From Elusimicrobiaceae bacterium (GTDB taxonomy: Bacteria > Elusimicrobiota > Elusimicrobia > Elusimicrobiales > Elusimicrobiaceae), in contig JAFXGO010000029.1 of NCBI GenBank assembly GCA_017520185.1, positions 62,001 through 126,000 on the forward strand: a DNA stretch of 64,000 bases, in the 5' to 3' direction. The translations under genes were made by a program, and so were the position numbers. The notes under the pieces were generated by a model. It was not told the origin of the DNA. It did not search any database and saw only the letters and a program-made list of their open reading frames with translations. Each line of letters opens with the position of its first letter. The first letter of the stretch is position 1. Shown piece by piece: positions 21,002-29,333 of this stretch.

Positions 21002-21580
21002 TTACCACATGGCAGAAGTGTCGAAAACCACATCCGCATGAGCACGAACTTCACAAGCGGCAAAATATTTTTCTTCTGCCGGAATCCAACGACTTAAGAA
21101 TAACGAGGTTTTTTCCGCGCCTTCTCTTTTCAGCAGACGCTCTTGTTGAATGGCTGAGGAAACGGTTAGAAAAATTTTATAATGATAAAAACCTGCTAAC
21201 TCCGGCAACTGACTGTAAGAGCCTTCTACGATGTAAATGCTATGCGGTGCTATTTTTTGGCTTTCTTCCCAAAAATCATGATGTGGACGATACGGACGAT
21301 ATAAAATCTCTTTTCCTTGCGCAATCGGGGTCAACACCTCATGGCTAAAACGTTGCCAATCTATATGCCCCCCCACACACTCCATACGCAAAGCACTACG
21401 ACGGGAAAAGGGTAAATAAAAATCGTCTATATGCAAAACAGGAGCGCTAAGTTTCTCCCCCAAAAAGGCTGCCAACGTGCTTTTACCGCTGCTGCATCGA
21501 CCGTCTATCGCCACCAAAAATGGCGCAGGCCCTTGTTCGAGCCGCGCCATAATGGTTTGCAAAATATCGTCTTGAAACAT
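21002..21580 (-). CDS. uridine kinase-like P-loop protein
   Basis: This 192-residue protein has a P-loop (AIDGRCSSGKSTLA near residue 24) and HIDDFYLPF near 50, as in uridine kinases and related nucleoside kinases. It also has the RPYRPHHDFW stretch and a lid-type RWIPAEEKYF near 166. The substrate is not certain; it resembles the uridine kinase group commonly left unnamed. It overlaps the DUF362 gene stop by one base (TAATG), so the two are cotranscribed. Confidence 0.75.
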   Translation of the reverse strand: MFQDDILQTIMARLEQGPAPFLVAIDGRCSSGKSTLAAFLGEKLSAPVLHIDDFYLPFSRRSALRMECVGGHIDWQRFSHEVLTPIAQGKEILYRPYRPHHDFWEESQKIAPHSIYIVEGSYSQLPELAGFYHYKIFLTVSSAIQQERLLKREGAEKTSLFLSRWIPAEEKYFAACEVRAHADVVFDTSAMW

Positions 21581-22689
21581 TATTTGATTTCTACCAACTC
21601 ATACTCAGTAGAGCCTAAGCCCATTTCTTGGGCATATTCTACGCACACACGCCAATTGGTGACGGGCGTTAAATTGGTAAAGTGGTCCCCATGACAGTGT
21701 TCGCGCTCAGCCAACAAACTGCCCGGCATAACGGGTTGACGATTAGCAGCATCGCCACAGGCCGTATCTAAAGCCACCGGATCAAAAGAGGCAAACATAC
21801 CGATATCCGGCACAATGGGGGCATCATTTTCACTATGGCAATCACAATACGGAGAAATATCGATGGCCAAACTAATATGAAAATGCGGTCTACCCGACAA
21901 AACGGCCCAAGAATATTCCACAATTTTTTTATTTAAAATATCATTGGATTCATCATTAGCTGCCGTCACGGCATCCGTCGGACAAACGCCTATACAACGG
22001 CCACAACCCACACACTTGGTCTGATCAATGGCGGCTTTTGCGTTGGTCACTTTCGGGGCATCATGCGCGCAAATGCGCAGGCAGGCCCCACAGCCTACAC
22101 ATTTTTCGGTATGAACAAAAGGCTTGCCTGCGCTATGCATTTCCATCTTGCCGGCACGAGAGCCACACCCCATACCTAAATTTTTAAGTGCACCGCCGGT
22201 ACCGGTACATTCATGACCTTTAAAATGATTGAGAGAAATCACGATATCGGCATCCATCACTGCATGACCGATTTTGGCCTCTTTTACATATTTTCCTTGC
22301 GGTACGGGCACCAATGTTTCATCCGTTCCCTTTAGGCCGTCTGCAATAATAATCTGGCAGCCCGTAGTCTGCGCAGTGTAGCCGTTATAAGCGGCAGAGG
22401 CTAAGTGGTCTAAGGCATTTTTTCGCCCACCTACATATAAAGTATTACAATCGGTTAAAAAGGGCTTTCCTCCTAATTCTCTCACCACTTCTGCAACGGC
22501 AGTGGCATAATTGGGACGCAGAAAAGCCAAATTGCCCGGTTCTCCAAAATGAATTTTAATAGCTACAAATTTATTTTTAAAGTCAATTTGATCAATGCCC
22601 GCCTGTTTGATCAAACGTTTTAATTTCTTAGGTAAGCCCTCACCTAATTTGGTGCGCATGTTGGTAAAATATACTTTTGATTTAGCCAT
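21580..22689 (-). CDS. DUF362-domain protein with two 4Fe-4S clusters
   Basis: This 369-residue protein begins with a DUF362 domain (VAIKIHFGEPGN near residue 44, ISLNHFKGHECTGTGGALKNLGMG near 151). Two ferredoxin-like motifs follow, CVGCGACLRIC and CVGCGRCIGVC (about residues 196-240). DUF362 proteins are cytoplasmic iron-sulfur proteins of uncertain reaction, common in anaerobes. GAGGAGA precedes the ATG. It is the first gene of a pair with the uridine-kinase-like gene. Confidence 0.88.
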   Translation of the reverse strand: MAKSKVYFTNMRTKLGEGLPKKLKRLIKQAGIDQIDFKNKFVAIKIHFGEPGNLAFLRPNYATAVAEVVRELGGKPFLTDCNTLYVGGRKNALDHLASAAYNGYTAQTTGCQIIIADGLKGTDETLVPVPQGKYVKEAKIGHAVMDADIVISLNHFKGHECTGTGGALKNLGMGCGSRAGKMEMHSAGKPFVHTEKCVGCGACLRICAHDAPKVTNAKAAIDQTKCVGCGRCIGVCPTDAVTAANDESNDILNKKIVEYSWAVLSGRPHFHISLAIDISPYCDCHSENDAPIVPDIGMFASFDPVALDTACGDAANRQPVMPGSLLAEREHCHGDHFTNLTPVTNWRVCVEYAQEMGLGSTEYELVEIK

Positions 22690-22737: not shown

Positions 22738-25700
22738 TTAGGGTTGTACAGAATTAGGGAAAGAATAAGGAATATTGCTGGGCGGAACCTGATTAAACAG
22801 TTCTTCCGCTACGCCGGATACATAGTTAACCCATGCTTCATCTAAGATAATAAAAGGAAATTCAAAATTTTCATAATCTTGATAATCCCTTTCGTCTATG
22901 CCCCAAGCAAAAGAGGCAAAGCCGTTTTCTTTACAGTTTCCAAACCACATAACGCGCCCGAAAAATTCTTTCTCAATTTGATAAACTGTTTTCGTCACTT
23001 CATCTTCGCTAGTGGCATTAGCCAACTGTAAAAGTAATTCTAACGCATTTAACATTTTCTTCTTTTCACGATTGGGGAAAAGGCCTTTTGTTTCCTCTTG
23101 CAAGCGTTTTACACTTTCAGCCAATGGATATATTTCTTTTCCGTCTATCATAACTCTGGCGGCCAAGCCGTCTCCATTAAAGCGCATACGTTGCAAAACT
23201 TTACCCAATAATTTTTTGCGGGTATCGCCCTGTTCCCATTGGGCAGGTAAATCTTCCGGCATGCTTCGCTGATTTTTAGAAGCAGTGACGAAGATATCTG
23301 TCGTCATCAGCAAGTCGGCATATCTGGCTTGGGCAAACATTTCTTGCATATCGTTTAAAAAATGTCCGGAGAAACAAGCATTTAGGTAAATAGACGTATG
23401 GGCAGAAGGAGTCTCTGCGAGCAATTGTGCTATTTTCACAGCACTGACACTATGCTCCGGATGCAATTGCTCCTCCGGCCAAACTAAAGGTGCTTTCCAT
23501 GTATTGAGTCTGTTTACACCGCCATGTCCATGAATAAGAAGTACGTTTTCTTTTCCTTCGACAAAATGATCAAAGGCTTCTTCCAAAGGAGCTTCTCTGA
23601 CTAAAATCGGCTGAGAAAAGCCCAATAATGTTTTTCTATCCCACACATTGGAAGGCACAAAATCATGCCCCACCACAAAGATGGTATTGGGAGTAGGAGC
23701 TTCCCATTTAGAAAACATTAATAATCTGTTCTGCAACAAAATAGCCTCATAAGGATCAAAGGAAATTTTGGCATAAAGATCTGTTTTTAACTGCTCATAT
23801 TCTTGCATTTGCATTTCGGAAAAAGCAGATTCCAAGCCTTCAAATTTTCTCAAGAATTTTCTCAAAGCAGGCGCCGGACTTAATGCGTGATTATCCGGAT
23901 ATCCCACCCATTTGTTCACTACCTCATCATGCCAATCTACCACACTTTGTCTGTTTTCTTCTAAACGGGCTTTTTCGGAAGAATTTGTTTCTTGCGCAAT
24001 TTTAGTGACCAATAAATCATGAAAAGCTTCTATGATTTTTCCTTTATAGGCATCGGCAAAAATACTGCTTTCTTTATTGCTGACTTTATGCACGATCCGT
24101 CTCTTGGGGGTATTGTTGGACAAGGCAGCCTCTTCCTCCGGATAAGCCTTTGGCATGTATAGCATATGAAATTCTTTCATAAATCTTTGTTTTCCGTCGG
24201 AAAAATCCTTTTCCAAGCGATAATACGTTGCCAAATCTTCTGCAGCAGCCGCCAATAACTGCTCATCTGCCAAAATTTGTTCTATGCTTCTATCAGCAAG
24301 TTGCCATTTATCAATCAAATCTTGTCTTTGCACACCGTTATCTTCCATTTGACGGCGCAAAACTCTTTGTTCTTCAGGTTCTTCCGGTTGGGACGGCGCA
24401 GTGGGCTTTTTTAACGGTGTGACAGGCCAACCCAAAGCGGTAAAAACCTGCACCTGATATTGAGCAAATTTGCTTGATTTGAGCATTTGGGAAACCACTT
24501 CTTCCTTAAACTTATTTTCCAAAAGTTCAAGATCAGAATTCCCTACCGCCAACAAAGCCTGCCAATAAGCATCCAACACCATATCCGTAATTTCTTGACT
24601 TATTTGCAAGTTATTAGCTCTTTCCACAAATTGAGCCACAAATCCATTAGCCCCTAAAACCAGCCCCCCTTTGTTGAGAAGTCTTACCAAATTTTCCTGA
24701 AACATATCAACGTTTAAAATAGAAGGTTCTGGGCGAGGCTCCGACACTAATACTCCTTCTTGTCCGCGAACAGCAAATAAATCATCGGCAGCCACCGGAT
24801 CTTTTTGATAAGCGGCCGCTACCACCTGATCATCAAATTGTCCTTTAAAAGCAGATACTCCGGCAGGAAACAACAAGCGGGGGCCTAATTGTTGCAAGGA
24901 AAAATAGGAACCGCTGCTAAAAGGAGAAAGCAAACTTTTGCTAGACATTGGCACAGATACCTGTGCCATTCCTAAAGTTCTGGGTGCATTTAAGCCGGGT
25001 ACGGTAAATGTCCTTAACGTATTAAACTTGCTTCCCATACCACCGGCATAATCGGCTATCATCACCAGCGGAGCCGTCGTGCGTGAGGCGGCCACAGGAG
25101 TGGTGGCGGTAATGGTAAAGGCAGGGTTGCCTACTCCGGTCATAGCAGATAAACCGGCAAACCCTTGCGGAGTAGTCAAAGATCCTTTCAACCCGATTCT
25201 TAGATTATCCCACAACATAGAGAGTCCCACCTGAAAACGTACACTCCACGGAATGTGGCGAATTACGCGGTTGGTTTTTGCAGCGGTAGAAGTATAGGCT
25301 AAAGCCAATTCGTCTAACTGAGCCAAGTGCATGGCTTCACGTTGAGCTTGAAATACATTTTGAAAAGCCAGGTAATAGGCTTCTTCTCTTTGAGCCATCG
25401 TAAGGGGTCTGCCCAATTGTCGAGCAATTTGATATTGATTGGCCAAATTAAAGCGATACTTACTTAAGAATGTTTGTTTATCGGCTAAACTAAAACCTTT
25501 CACCTGTTGTTGCATTTTGGCAATGCTGGCAGCAGCCTTTTCTTCCGTTAATCCCACTCTGACAGCAGCTTCACCGGTAGCAGTGATTTGAGGGGCGGAA
25601 AACGTCACCGGTTTTAAAGAGGTATTAACAACAGGAGTAGCTGCGGAAGTTGCCTTTGCTCCGGCAGAGGCCGTTCTGGCCGTAGTGGCTGAAGAAGCAG

Positions 25701-27330
25701 TTTTGCCCGCAGAAGATGCCACTCTGACAGAAGATGCAGGATGAATTCTTCTCAGAACACGCGTCATTTTGCTAGCCATTGTTTCTATTTTACGAATGTG
25801 GCGTATTTTGCCAAAAGCCGCCAATCCCTTTGCACCCAACGTACCCAAAGAAACCACTAAACGAGGCAACAAAATAACTGCTACTGCCAAATCAATAAAA
25901 CCAAATACATTTCTTTCTCTCTGTTGTCGGGCATAACGATCAAACTTTGCCTGATCGCGAACCGTATAGTCGGATAAGGAAACGTTTTCCCCTCTCTTTT
26001 TCAAAGACTCCGCTGCCGCTATTTTAAGGCGACGCTGAGAACCTTCATTCAAATCAGAAAAATCAATACTGAGAATGCCAAATAACAATTTTTTGGCTTC
26101 AGTTCCCCCTTTTTCATAGGTCCATTTTCCGTCAGCACCCGTTAACAAGCCCATAATCAATGGTACAGGCAGGCTTGCTCTATTGCTCCAAATCCAACCG
26201 GCCAAAGCACCAGTTTGAGCGTTCGCACTGTCTTGCGCAATAGCCATGCCCAAATCTTCTAACAAATTACCGTAGGGGCACTGAAACATATTCTTAACGG
26301 AGGAAATGGCATTTTCACGGTTAGCACAGGTACCTCTGCCAAACCATTTATCTCCTAAATCCGTATCTAAATACGTGTATTTACCCGTATAAGAATCTAA
26401 ATACTCTCCTTGTGTAAAGGACCGATTTTCATGAACAATTCGGGCAATGCCTTCGAAAGAAAAATAACTTATTTTGTCCAACACGCTGTCAAAACCCGTT
26501 GGTTGCGCTTCACTGCTTAAAAAGGATTTTAATTTCTCTTGTTCGTTTAAAGCCAACAATAACAAAGCCCCTTGATAAATAGCCCCCTGCCCCATTTTAG
26601 AGCGGTTTTTATTAACCATAAATTGATATATGTCAGCAGCGGCTCTTTTTTTATAAGAGGGATGCTGCATACCTAAGACAGCCAACCCTTCCAATGCTTC
26701 GGCAGCTAATCCGCACTGGAATTGCTGCGGCTGACGAACCATATCCGTATCTGCTTTATTGCATAAATTTTCAATGCTTAAAAGGCCTTTTAGATACCGA
26801 TATGCTCGATCAACACCTTTTTCACTGGCTCCTACATCAAGAATCGTATTTACTACGAGGCGATTTTGCCCCTCATCATATATTTTATTTTGGGCATCGC
26901 CTATTACTGAATTACCGTTCCAACCCTTTTGCAAAGTTAAATCCAAACAACTTTGCAAATACTGTCCGGCATTGGCCTTCCATTTATATACCTCTATTTC
27001 TCCTTCCCACAAGTCTTTGTTTTTAGAAGCGGCAAAGGCATTTTTCTGACAGTTTTTCAACACCCTATTCATGATATAACGGGCATCTTGCGGATATGAG
27101 TGAAGACGAGCAAAAAGTTCGGCCTGTTGATAATGGATAAAAACTTCTACTTGAGAGGAGGTGGTGGCATATTCCGTTTCAGGGGATTGCGCGGCAGAGG
27201 CTTCTTGAAAAGCGGCCTCAAACATATCCTCCAACTCAGAAGATGACGGAGCAACGATGCCTCCAGCCATCGGAGCAGTAGAGGAAAAAAGCAAACAAAA
27301 AGACAATAATAAGGATAACCATTTTTTCAT
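22738..27330 (-). CDS. very large exported protein with a caspase/gingipain-like signature
   Basis: This 1530-residue protein has a signal peptide (WLSLLLSFCLLFSSTAPMAGG). A long helical N-terminal region follows, then a hydrophobic stretch near 480-510 (DLAVAVILLPRLVVSLG), an Ala/Ser/Thr-rich linker near 530-575 and a long helical middle. Near 1266 it reads VLLIHGHGGVNR and near 1316 IYLNACFSGHF: a His-Gly and an Ala-Cys-Phe-Ser-Gly pair after hydrophobic strands, the clan CD (caspase, gingipain, clostripain) catalytic pattern. I infer a self- or partner-processing cysteine peptidase at the cell surface or periplasm. The rest has no family I recognise. Confidence 0.65.
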   Translation of the reverse strand: MKKWLSLLLSFCLLFSSTAPMAGGIVAPSSSELEDMFEAAFQEASAAQSPETEYATTSSQVEVFIHYQQAELFARLHSYPQDARYIMNRVLKNCQKNAFAASKNKDLWEGEIEVYKWKANAGQYLQSCLDLTLQKGWNGNSVIGDAQNKIYDEGQNRLVVNTILDVGASEKGVDRAYRYLKGLLSIENLCNKADTDMVRQPQQFQCGLAAEALEGLAVLGMQHPSYKKRAAADIYQFMVNKNRSKMGQGAIYQGALLLLALNEQEKLKSFLSSEAQPTGFDSVLDKISYFSFEGIARIVHENRSFTQGEYLDSYTGKYTYLDTDLGDKWFGRGTCANRENAISSVKNMFQCPYGNLLEDLGMAIAQDSANAQTGALAGWIWSNRASLPVPLIMGLLTGADGKWTYEKGGTEAKKLLFGILSIDFSDLNEGSQRRLKIAAAESLKKRGENVSLSDYTVRDQAKFDRYARQQRERNVFGFIDLAVAVILLPRLVVSLGTLGAKGLAAFGKIRHIRKIETMASKMTRVLRRIHPASSVRVASSAGKTASSATTARTASAGAKATSAATPVVNTSLKPVTFSAPQITATGEAAVRVGLTEEKAAASIAKMQQQVKGFSLADKQTFLSKYRFNLANQYQIARQLGRPLTMAQREEAYYLAFQNVFQAQREAMHLAQLDELALAYTSTAAKTNRVIRHIPWSVRFQVGLSMLWDNLRIGLKGSLTTPQGFAGLSAMTGVGNPAFTITATTPVAASRTTAPLVMIADYAGGMGSKFNTLRTFTVPGLNAPRTLGMAQVSVPMSSKSLLSPFSSGSYFSLQQLGPRLLFPAGVSAFKGQFDDQVVAAAYQKDPVAADDLFAVRGQEGVLVSEPRPEPSILNVDMFQENLVRLLNKGGLVLGANGFVAQFVERANNLQISQEITDMVLDAYWQALLAVGNSDLELLENKFKEEVVSQMLKSSKFAQYQVQVFTALGWPVTPLKKPTAPSQPEEPEEQRVLRRQMEDNGVQRQDLIDKWQLADRSIEQILADEQLLAAAAEDLATYYRLEKDFSDGKQRFMKEFHMLYMPKAYPEEEAALSNNTPKRRIVHKVSNKESSIFADAYKGKIIEAFHDLLVTKIAQETNSSEKARLEENRQSVVDWHDEVVNKWVGYPDNHALSPAPALRKFLRKFEGLESAFSEMQMQEYEQLKTDLYAKISFDPYEAILLQNRLLMFSKWEAPTPNTIFVVGHDFVPSNVWDRKTLLGFSQPILVREAPLEEAFDHFVEGKENVLLIHGHGGVNRLNTWKAPLVWPEEQLHPEHSVSAVKIAQLLAETPSAHTSIYLNACFSGHFLNDMQEMFAQARYADLLMTTDIFVTASKNQRSMPEDLPAQWEQGDTRKKLLGKVLQRMRFNGDGLAARVMIDGKEIYPLAESVKRLQEETKGLFPNREKKKMLNALELLLQLANATSEDEVTKTVYQIEKEFFGRVMWFGNCKENGFASFAWGIDERDYQDYENFEFPFIILDEAWVNYVSGVAEELFNQVPPSNIPYSFPNSVQP

Positions 27331-27484: not shown

Positions 27485-27922
27485 ATGGCAGAAATACACG
27501 TATTAATTATTTTATTTATAGTAGGGTTTACATCGGCCGGACTTTTGCCCTCTCAGGCTGAAGTGGTGCTTTTTGCCATCTTGGCAACGGGCGACTATCG
27601 GGCCTGGCTATTAGTCTTGGTGACTACGGCAGGAAATGTGACGGGAAGTGTGGGTAATTACTATTTAGGCAAATATATTCGTCGGTTTGAAAATAAAAAG
27701 TGGTTTCCGGTAAAAGAAAAATACCTACTTAGCGCGCAACATCTTTTTGAGCAAAAAGGCCCTCTGACTTTGTTGTTAGCCGGAATCCCTTTTATAGGAG
27801 ACCCCATTACTATCGCCGCCGGAATGAATCAAGTAAAAATGTGGCTTTTTCTGCCATTGGTAAGCCTATCCAAAGGATGCCGCTATGCTTTTGTATGGCT
27901 TTTATTTACAGGTATTTTCTAA
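27485..27922 (+). CDS. YqaA/DedA-like membrane protein
   Basis: This 145-residue protein has four or five hydrophobic segments and the SNARE-associated/YqaA pattern: LPSQAEVVLFAILATGD near residue 21, GNVTGSVGNYYLGKY near 57, GIPFIGDPITIAAGM near 100. DedA-type proteins are implicated in lipid-carrier translocation and membrane homeostasis. AAAGAGG precedes the ATG. The family call is good; the substrate is unknown. Confidence 0.75.
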   Translation: MAEIHVLIILFIVGFTSAGLLPSQAEVVLFAILATGDYRAWLLVLVTTAGNVTGSVGNYYLGKYIRRFENKKWFPVKEKYLLSAQHLFEQKGPLTLLLAGIPFIGDPITIAAGMNQVKMWLFLPLVSLSKGCRYAFVWLLFTGIF

Positions 27923-28838: not shown

Positions 28839-29333
28839 CTAATCCATGTAATAGCAACTGCCGTTTCCACCAGTGACAATACAGTTCGTAGTTCCCGACA
28901 AAACTTTAGTAAATCCAAGTTCTGTACAAGAAGTTCCATCGCATATACGCTGTCCGTTCCTGTTAATACCCAACCTGAAATTATGATTTCCACCACCACG
29001 ATACGTAGCATAAAGATCGTGCGCACCTGACGCAGCAGAACAGGCTATCACACCCCGATAAGTAAAATATTCAGAATCCTGTACTTCAATGGATAATAGA
29101 TCATAATTCCCTTCAGAAAAGAAAACGGTTCCGTCCGGATTTTCCAAACAAGCTGCTTTTACTGCTTTATTCAAAGTCCCCAAATTTGCCCATACTTCTG
29201 CGGTGCGGCTTCTAAGCACCGTTTTTTGATACTGCGGCAAAGCCATCGCAGATAAAATACCGATAATTAGAACCACTACCAATAATTCTATCAATGTAAA
29301 TCCTTTACAGTCTTTAATTTTGATTTTTTTCAT
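28839..29333 (-). CDS. type IV pilin-like protein 2
   Basis: This 164-residue prepilin has leader KDCKG|FTLIELLVVVLIIG with Glu5, then ILSAMALPQYQKTVLRSRTAEVWANL, nearly the same as pilin 3. The globular part has paired Cys in CSAASG-type, ICDGTSC and a C-terminal CYYMD. It probably assembles with a type IV pilus or pseudopilus; no assembly genes are in this window. The start is set by the conserved GAG-ATG junction also used by pilin 3. Confidence 0.88.
   Translation of the reverse strand: MKKIKIKDCKGFTLIELLVVVLIIGILSAMALPQYQKTVLRSRTAEVWANLGTLNKAVKAACLENPDGTVFFSEGNYDLLSIEVQDSEYFTYRGVIACSAASGAHDLYATYRGGGNHNFRLGINRNGQRICDGTSCTELGFTKVLSGTTNCIVTGGNGSCYYMD

Follow-up and report, generated by a model that had tools for sequence, protein, structure and literature searches.

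Results

Organization of the locus

The window analyzed here, a stretch of 64,000 nucleotides from the genome of an Elusimicrobiaceae bacterium (assembly GCA_017520185.1, contig JAFXGO010000029.1, positions 62,001 to 126,000), carries on its minus strand a giant gene flanked by genes for a DUF362 / ferredoxin-like protein and a VTT-domain membrane protein. The features of the locus are as follows (window coordinates; aa, residues of the giant protein):

21580..22689, minus strand: DUF362 / ferredoxin-like gene
22738..27330, minus strand: giant open reading frame (ORF) of 1530 aa with an ATG start and no internal stop (equal to G000:C29:84741-89330)
22792..23694, minus strand: predicted caspase-like (clan CD) domain, aa 1213-1513, assigned by fold, profiles and motif conservation
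23374..23376, minus strand: predicted catalytic Cys1319, from conservation and motif position
23524..23526, minus strand: predicted catalytic His1269, from conservation and motif position
23695..24348, minus strand: helical segment, aa 995-1212, before the caspase-like domain; also present in tandem copies
24751..25593, minus strand: region aa 580-860, with 59% and 61% identity to the two closest orthologues
25696..26883, minus strand: N-module, aa 150-545, defined by iterated hmmsearch and common to a wider family with different C-termini
25852..25908, minus strand: hydrophobic helix, aa 475-493, proposed membrane span, mean hydropathy 2.34
27250..27330, minus strand: Sec signal peptide-like start, ~aa 1-27, sequence MKKWLSLLLSFCLLFSSTAPMAGG, hydrophobic scan aa 8-26
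27485..27922, plus strand: VTT-domain membrane protein

The ORF is intact, in agreement with the sequence-only reading, which had described an exported 1530-residue protein with a clan CD-like His/Cys pair. That pair is confirmed as well: HGHGG begins at aa 1267 and ACFSG at aa 1318, a hydrophobic run precedes each, and H1269, the second His of its motif, stands 50 residues before C1319. Among the window ORFs of at least 100 aa, the pattern hydrophobic-HG...hydrophobic-C-x-[STA]-G is unique to the giant, and it arose in one of 5000 shuffles of the protein, a figure that is a rough guide only because the pattern was devised once the sequence was known. Motif conservation among relatives, presented below, is the stronger evidence for the pair.

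The DUF362 gene adjoins the giant gene at all 12 orthologous loci, and the VTT gene lies on its other side at ten; the 12 orthologous proteins are thus placed by both flanks in ten cases and by the DUF362 side in L034 and L088, where the contig ends. The window protein is ~52% identical to its two closest orthologues, and the nitroreductase, VTT and DUF362 neighbours are 81-95% identical in the same two loci. The DUF362 subfamily (E<=1e-50) occurs in 15 of 61 genomes of the genus, 12 of which have a full-length giant. This co-occurrence looks like the inheritance of one locus, because the VTT-to-CinA block is missing beside the nitroreductase gene at the 16 DUF362-minus sites inspected (L091-L094, L099-L110). 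As co-occurrence is no proof of joint function, DUF362 was not retained as a functional partner. Both neighbours are kept at three further loci (L095, L096 and L097), where the giant is absent and a few small genes stand in its place.

Near two N-module giants that have no caspase-like domain (L046 and L047) stand genes of the C_GCAxxG or CinA type, both also present among the neighbours of the window gene; these giants are possibly the same locus with another C-terminus. The window also holds a short prepilin-like gene with an N_methyl motif (28839-29333), and BLAST found similar short genes at other places in the window and near relatives.

Fold and classification of the caspase-like domain

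An AlphaFold2 model of aa 990-1530, computed from 18 aligned copies, reached a pLDDT of 86.2 and a pTM of 0.83. Its best Foldseek match is human MALT1 (E 2.5e-4), and all eight matches at E<=0.001 are MALT1 or metacaspase. Among the best 50 of 461 matches, ranks 1-36 are occupied by MALT1, one metacaspase and one asparaginyl endopeptidase, followed by unrelated enzymes. Since only ~160-190 of the 541 model residues align, the clan CD rows have low TM-scores (0.15-0.22 by query, 0.21-0.42 by target). VIA-align, which re-aligns Foldseek candidates only, listed 50 rows that are caspase-fold proteins by entry title, with Z of 10.1-11.5 over 162-186 residues; the titles name mTORC1/Raptor entries, MALT1, legumain/AEP, GPI transamidase, caspases and a metacaspase, and we infer that the mTORC1 chains are those of Raptor. 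Strands 272-279 and 322-329 of the model directly precede model residues H280 and C330, which correspond to H1269 and C1319. In the structure prediction proposed in the sequence-only reading as a check, His and Cys each stand at the end of a strand, as in clan CD, and the matched fold implies that the two would lie close in space rather than apart.

Remote profile matches point to the same clan. The NCBIfam profile NF047832 (caspase_w_EACC1) matches aa 1249-1355 of the window protein, covering both motifs, with an E-value of 1.9e-4 (21 bits), and the orthologue L082 with 8.2e-7 (28.7 bits); neither reaches the curated cut-off of 140 bits. Of the 13 proteins in a broad set, eight match the same profile at E<=1 (best 7.9e-8). 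Since these scores are far under the curated cut-off, the domain belongs to clan CD by fold and to no filed family. The earlier statement that the remainder of the protein has no recognised family holds for Pfam, where DUF726 at E 4 was the only match in a scan that lists matches at E<=10 and in which the HMMER filters drop most matches above ~0.1; it is to be qualified by the weak caspase_w_EACC1 match. Weak Pfam Peptidase_C13 matches appeared in two sets of domain copies (2/15 and 3/13; best E 0.0096); the score on L080 was 15.3 bits against a gathering score of 22.8, and the window copy gave no match. Searches of the PDB with phmmer (whole protein) and with domain profiles A1, A3 and A6 gave nothing useful, nor did a search of the genome contigs with the window protein as single query.

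Gingipains and clostripains (C25, C11) are also clan CD enzymes, among them large surface-related proteases, and the domain had initially been called caspase/gingipain-like. Its clan CD half is upheld by fold, remote profiles and motif conservation. Gingipain affiliation is rejected: neither C25 nor C11 gave a Pfam match at E<=10, and MALT1, metacaspase and legumain are the closest matches. A caspase fold appears nearly certain, and that the domain is an active protease is a well-favoured prediction.

Conservation and phylogenetic range

Homologues were surveyed in 32 distinct domain copies (repeats removed), which are not an independent sample because they were gathered with a profile of the same domain. 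The Cys1319 position is Cys in 32/32. At the His1269 position, 28 copies have His, two have Arg and two are not covered by the alignment (28 of 30 scorable). The two exceptions are the second domain copies of L085 and L088, where Arg replaces the catalytic His and the first copy has both residues, a possible active/inactive pair judging from these residues.

Of 149 genomes of the order, 19 encode the domain (16 in the same genus and three in a sister genus). In a sample of 340 genomes from the phylum, covering 100 genera, it was found in 17, all from these two genera, both of one family. Eight of nine named records encoding relatives are titled Elusimicrobiaceae, Elusimicrobiales or Candidatus Avelusimicrobium, and the ninth 'uncultured bacterium'. 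One of the eight comes from roe deer rectum, and a gut habitat is likely for the window's own genome.

A branch with support 100/100 sets the eight first copies (A) apart in a tree built from 23 domain copies, and another (94/97) does so for the four single-copy proteins. The B copies need two changes on this tree, and the placement of three long-branch rows is unsure.

Further proteins carry the domain. The genome of the window encodes a relative (L032:2-13777, G000:C9) of at least 4592 aa, whose 5' end lies at the contig edge and whose caspase-like domain is at the very end. MFS was recognised in it with E 3.1e-18 and a 5'-nucleotidase C-terminal domain with a score right at the cut-off, and several repeated segments are visible by eye. 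At a second locus (L111, L112, L113, L114 and L044), gene products of ~820-840 aa begin with a signal-peptide-like segment and contain a divergent form of the caspase-like domain; two such genes stand in tandem in L111 and L112, and one neighbour gene is common to four of the five. In L116 and L117 the caspase-like ORF immediately follows a long ORF that is read in a different frame and, in L117, looks MFS-like by eye; this may reflect a giant gene that has been split, or a mistake in the assembly.

Domain architectures and receiver domains of the orthologues

One caspase-like domain is found in four of the 12 orthologous proteins (window, L082, L098 and L034) and two, A then B, in the other eight. 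Seven proteins end in a ~340-aa tail with a receiver domain, and five have none (window, L034, L083, L084 and L087).

A profile of eight receiver tails, taken from orthologues and not from the window protein, found two-component receivers in the PDB, SLN1, CtrA and others (11 of 13 sequences at E<=0.01), with SLN1 as the best match (8.4e-8). Pfam Response_reg matched five of seven receiver-type proteins scanned at E 1.1e-4 to 0.089, all under the cut-off, and gave no match in L082 and L039/L089. The phospho-acceptor Asp is kept in all eight tails; at the position that we take to be that of the usual conserved Lys, most tail rows have another residue. The window's own genome and four relatives each encode five HisKA and seven to eight receiver matches, so that histidine kinases and response regulators are present in these hosts.

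L044:1111-6980 holds a caspase-like gene immediately followed by one that encodes an N-module protein ending in a receiver domain, and the two overlap if the first start codon is used. This two-gene arrangement repeats the pairing of protease and receiver. Since a receiver is joined to the domain in several relatives, the protease is suggested to be switched on by signals rather than to be a secreted weapon.

N-module and membrane topology

Iterated hmmsearch with the N-module found 30 ORFs, six pairs of which are the same gene fetched twice (24 distinct), and detected the module at E<=1e-5 in 37 of the 149 genomes from the order; the E-values are inflated by iteration, and tandem-type proteins match part of the module only. 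The C-termini behind it comprise one caspase-like domain, two such domains, a receiver without protease (L044), MFS and sequence of no assigned type. A Pfam MFS domain above the cut-off stands behind the module in one relative only (L049), and L040, L042 and L043 have many hydrophobic segments there and no Pfam MFS match.

All 15 scanned proteins with N-module and complete start combine a signal-peptide-like segment with a hydrophobic helix that follows the module. Of the 23 proteins scored, 21 have more net positive charge on the C-side flank of the helix than on the other flank (means +7.9 and +3.8), with a tie in L090, a score taken at the wrong place in L088, and the truncated L045 skipped. 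The helix contains Asp and Arg, and its hydropathy is 1.25-1.57 in tandem-type proteins, making aa 475-493 a weak candidate for a membrane span.

Receivers act in the cytoplasm, and MFS proteins begin there with their N-terminus. Because of the receiver tails, the MFS domain behind the N-module in L049 and the charge around the helix, the C-terminus is predicted to face the cytoplasm, and that of the window protein most likely lies inside the cell. The signal-peptide-like start agrees with the proposal of an exported protein acting on the surface, but the helix, the receivers in 7 of 12 orthologues and the MFS domain of L049 make it doubtful; it is the weaker half of the original reading.

Discussion

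Proposed mechanism

Taken from these architectures and the domain model, our main reading is that of a membrane-anchored sensor with a cytoplasmic caspase-like protease, which in several orthologues would be coupled to two-component signalling; we give it a probability of about 0.5. The combination of cytoplasmic location, membrane anchor and signal gating may hold at about even odds, and the window protein is probably membrane-bound. For topology, sensing, protease activity, gating and substrate we infer the following steps. The signal peptide would take the N-terminal region (~aa 28-470) across the inner membrane, the hydrophobic helix (~aa 475-493) would serve as the anchor, and the remainder, ending in the caspase-like domain with predicted His1269 and Cys1319, would be kept in the cytoplasm. 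The outer part would sense an envelope condition, a role suggested by its position, because the structure model of aa 1-887 (two aligned sequences) had a pLDDT of 35 and was not used. Targets of the protease would then be the protein itself or a partner in the cytoplasm or inner membrane. In the 7 of 12 orthologous proteins that have it, the receiver behind the protease would gate it via phosphorylation; the window protein, which lacks this tail, would need a separate signal. As a guess from the model, the loop at aa 1062-1086 before the domain is a candidate self-cleavage site: it is disordered (pLDDT <50) and poorly conserved, with identities of 16% and 22% in aa 1051-1100.

Extending this reading, we tentatively consider an Elusimicrobiota family-specific transmembrane protease system, with a periplasmic sensor, one span and, in the cytoplasm, a single or doubled caspase-like domain under the control of a receiver that is fused or, in one genome, encoded by the neighbouring gene. 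In such a system, which we hold to be possible rather than likely, two-component signalling would be wired directly to a caspase, and other copies of the scaffold would carry a transporter or receiver instead.

Alternative readings

The protein could instead be an exported clan CD protease or large surface protein whose whole chain crosses the inner membrane, its domain processing the protein itself or surface partners, and helix 475-493 being membrane-associated or buried. Clostripains and gingipains, which process themselves or surface partners, offer a parallel. The signal-peptide-like start, the marginal quality of the helix as a span and the lack of a receiver in the window protein all fit. 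Secreted proteins with caspase-like domains are described in the available text of PMC3482391. We nevertheless judge this reading rather unlikely, as receiver tails in the orthologues, MFS behind the same N-module in L049 and the positive C-side flank of the helix speak against it.

A non-catalytic caspase fold that acts as a binding scaffold, comparable with the caspase-like domain of Raptor, would accord with mTORC1/Raptor chains standing at the top of the VIA-align list, tied with others, and with Arg for His in two B copies; the retention of His in 28/30 and Cys in 32/32 copies across very divergent relatives, the window included, makes it improbable.

Least probable is a polymorphic toxin-like protein, in which a constant N-terminal carrier would bear variable C-termini and the caspase-like domain would be an effector or release protease against competitors: the constant N-module does have varied C-termini (one or two caspase-like domains, receiver, MFS and others), the giant diverges fast (~52%) against neighbours at 81-95%, and the available text of PMC3482391 reports such uses of caspase-like domains, arrays included, but receiver and transporter domains, both found among these C-termini, are no toxins, the neighbours that stay constant are the DUF362 and VTT genes, with no candidate immunity gene recognised among the named ones, and PADLOC gave no match for the window protein.

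Comparison with known systems

Prokaryotic caspases and metacaspases (MEROPS C14, including NF047832) share the clan CD fold, with His-Gly and Cys-x-[ST]-Gly at strand ends; the domain of the window protein differs in lying C-terminal to a 1200-residue family-specific region, and in relatives it is often doubled and in several cases followed by a receiver tail. Legumain/AEP (C13) and the MALT1 paracaspase are among the best structural matches and differ in architecture. The available text of PMC3501461 describes bacterial metacaspases with membrane helices, one of which combines an extracellular CHASE2 receptor domain with a cytoplasmic protease, and names Elusimicrobia as one of the groups for which its 2011 genome set contains no metacaspase.

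For the EACC1/EACC2 caspase conflict systems, activation of the caspase by a membrane or sensory part has been proposed. They resemble the mechanism suggested here in membrane-linked sensing that would switch on a caspase and in a combination of constant and variable parts, and receiver domains are among the effectors of related systems, according to the available text of PMC7159879 and PMC8195603. In the EACC1 systems as presented there, a separate short membrane gene precedes a protein with an often N-terminal caspase (PMC7159879), whereas the window protein has its proposed membrane part and a C-terminal caspase (aa 1213-1513 of 1530) in one chain. No EACC1-like partner was recognised from the Pfam names of the neighbours (VTT, DUF362).

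Elusimicrobiota are rich in proteins of >5000 aa to which no COG is assigned, as stated in the available text of PMC11573180; the window protein is shorter at 1530 aa, and that text does not describe its family. A literature search returned no title or abstract opening that describes the family, an absence that is no proof.

Implications

Bacterial caspases are usually discussed for cell death and conflict with invaders. If the proposed mechanism is true, a membrane caspase joined to a receiver would tie bacterial caspases to ordinary envelope signalling, and it would provide a first function for part of the large uncharacterised proteins of Elusimicrobiota.
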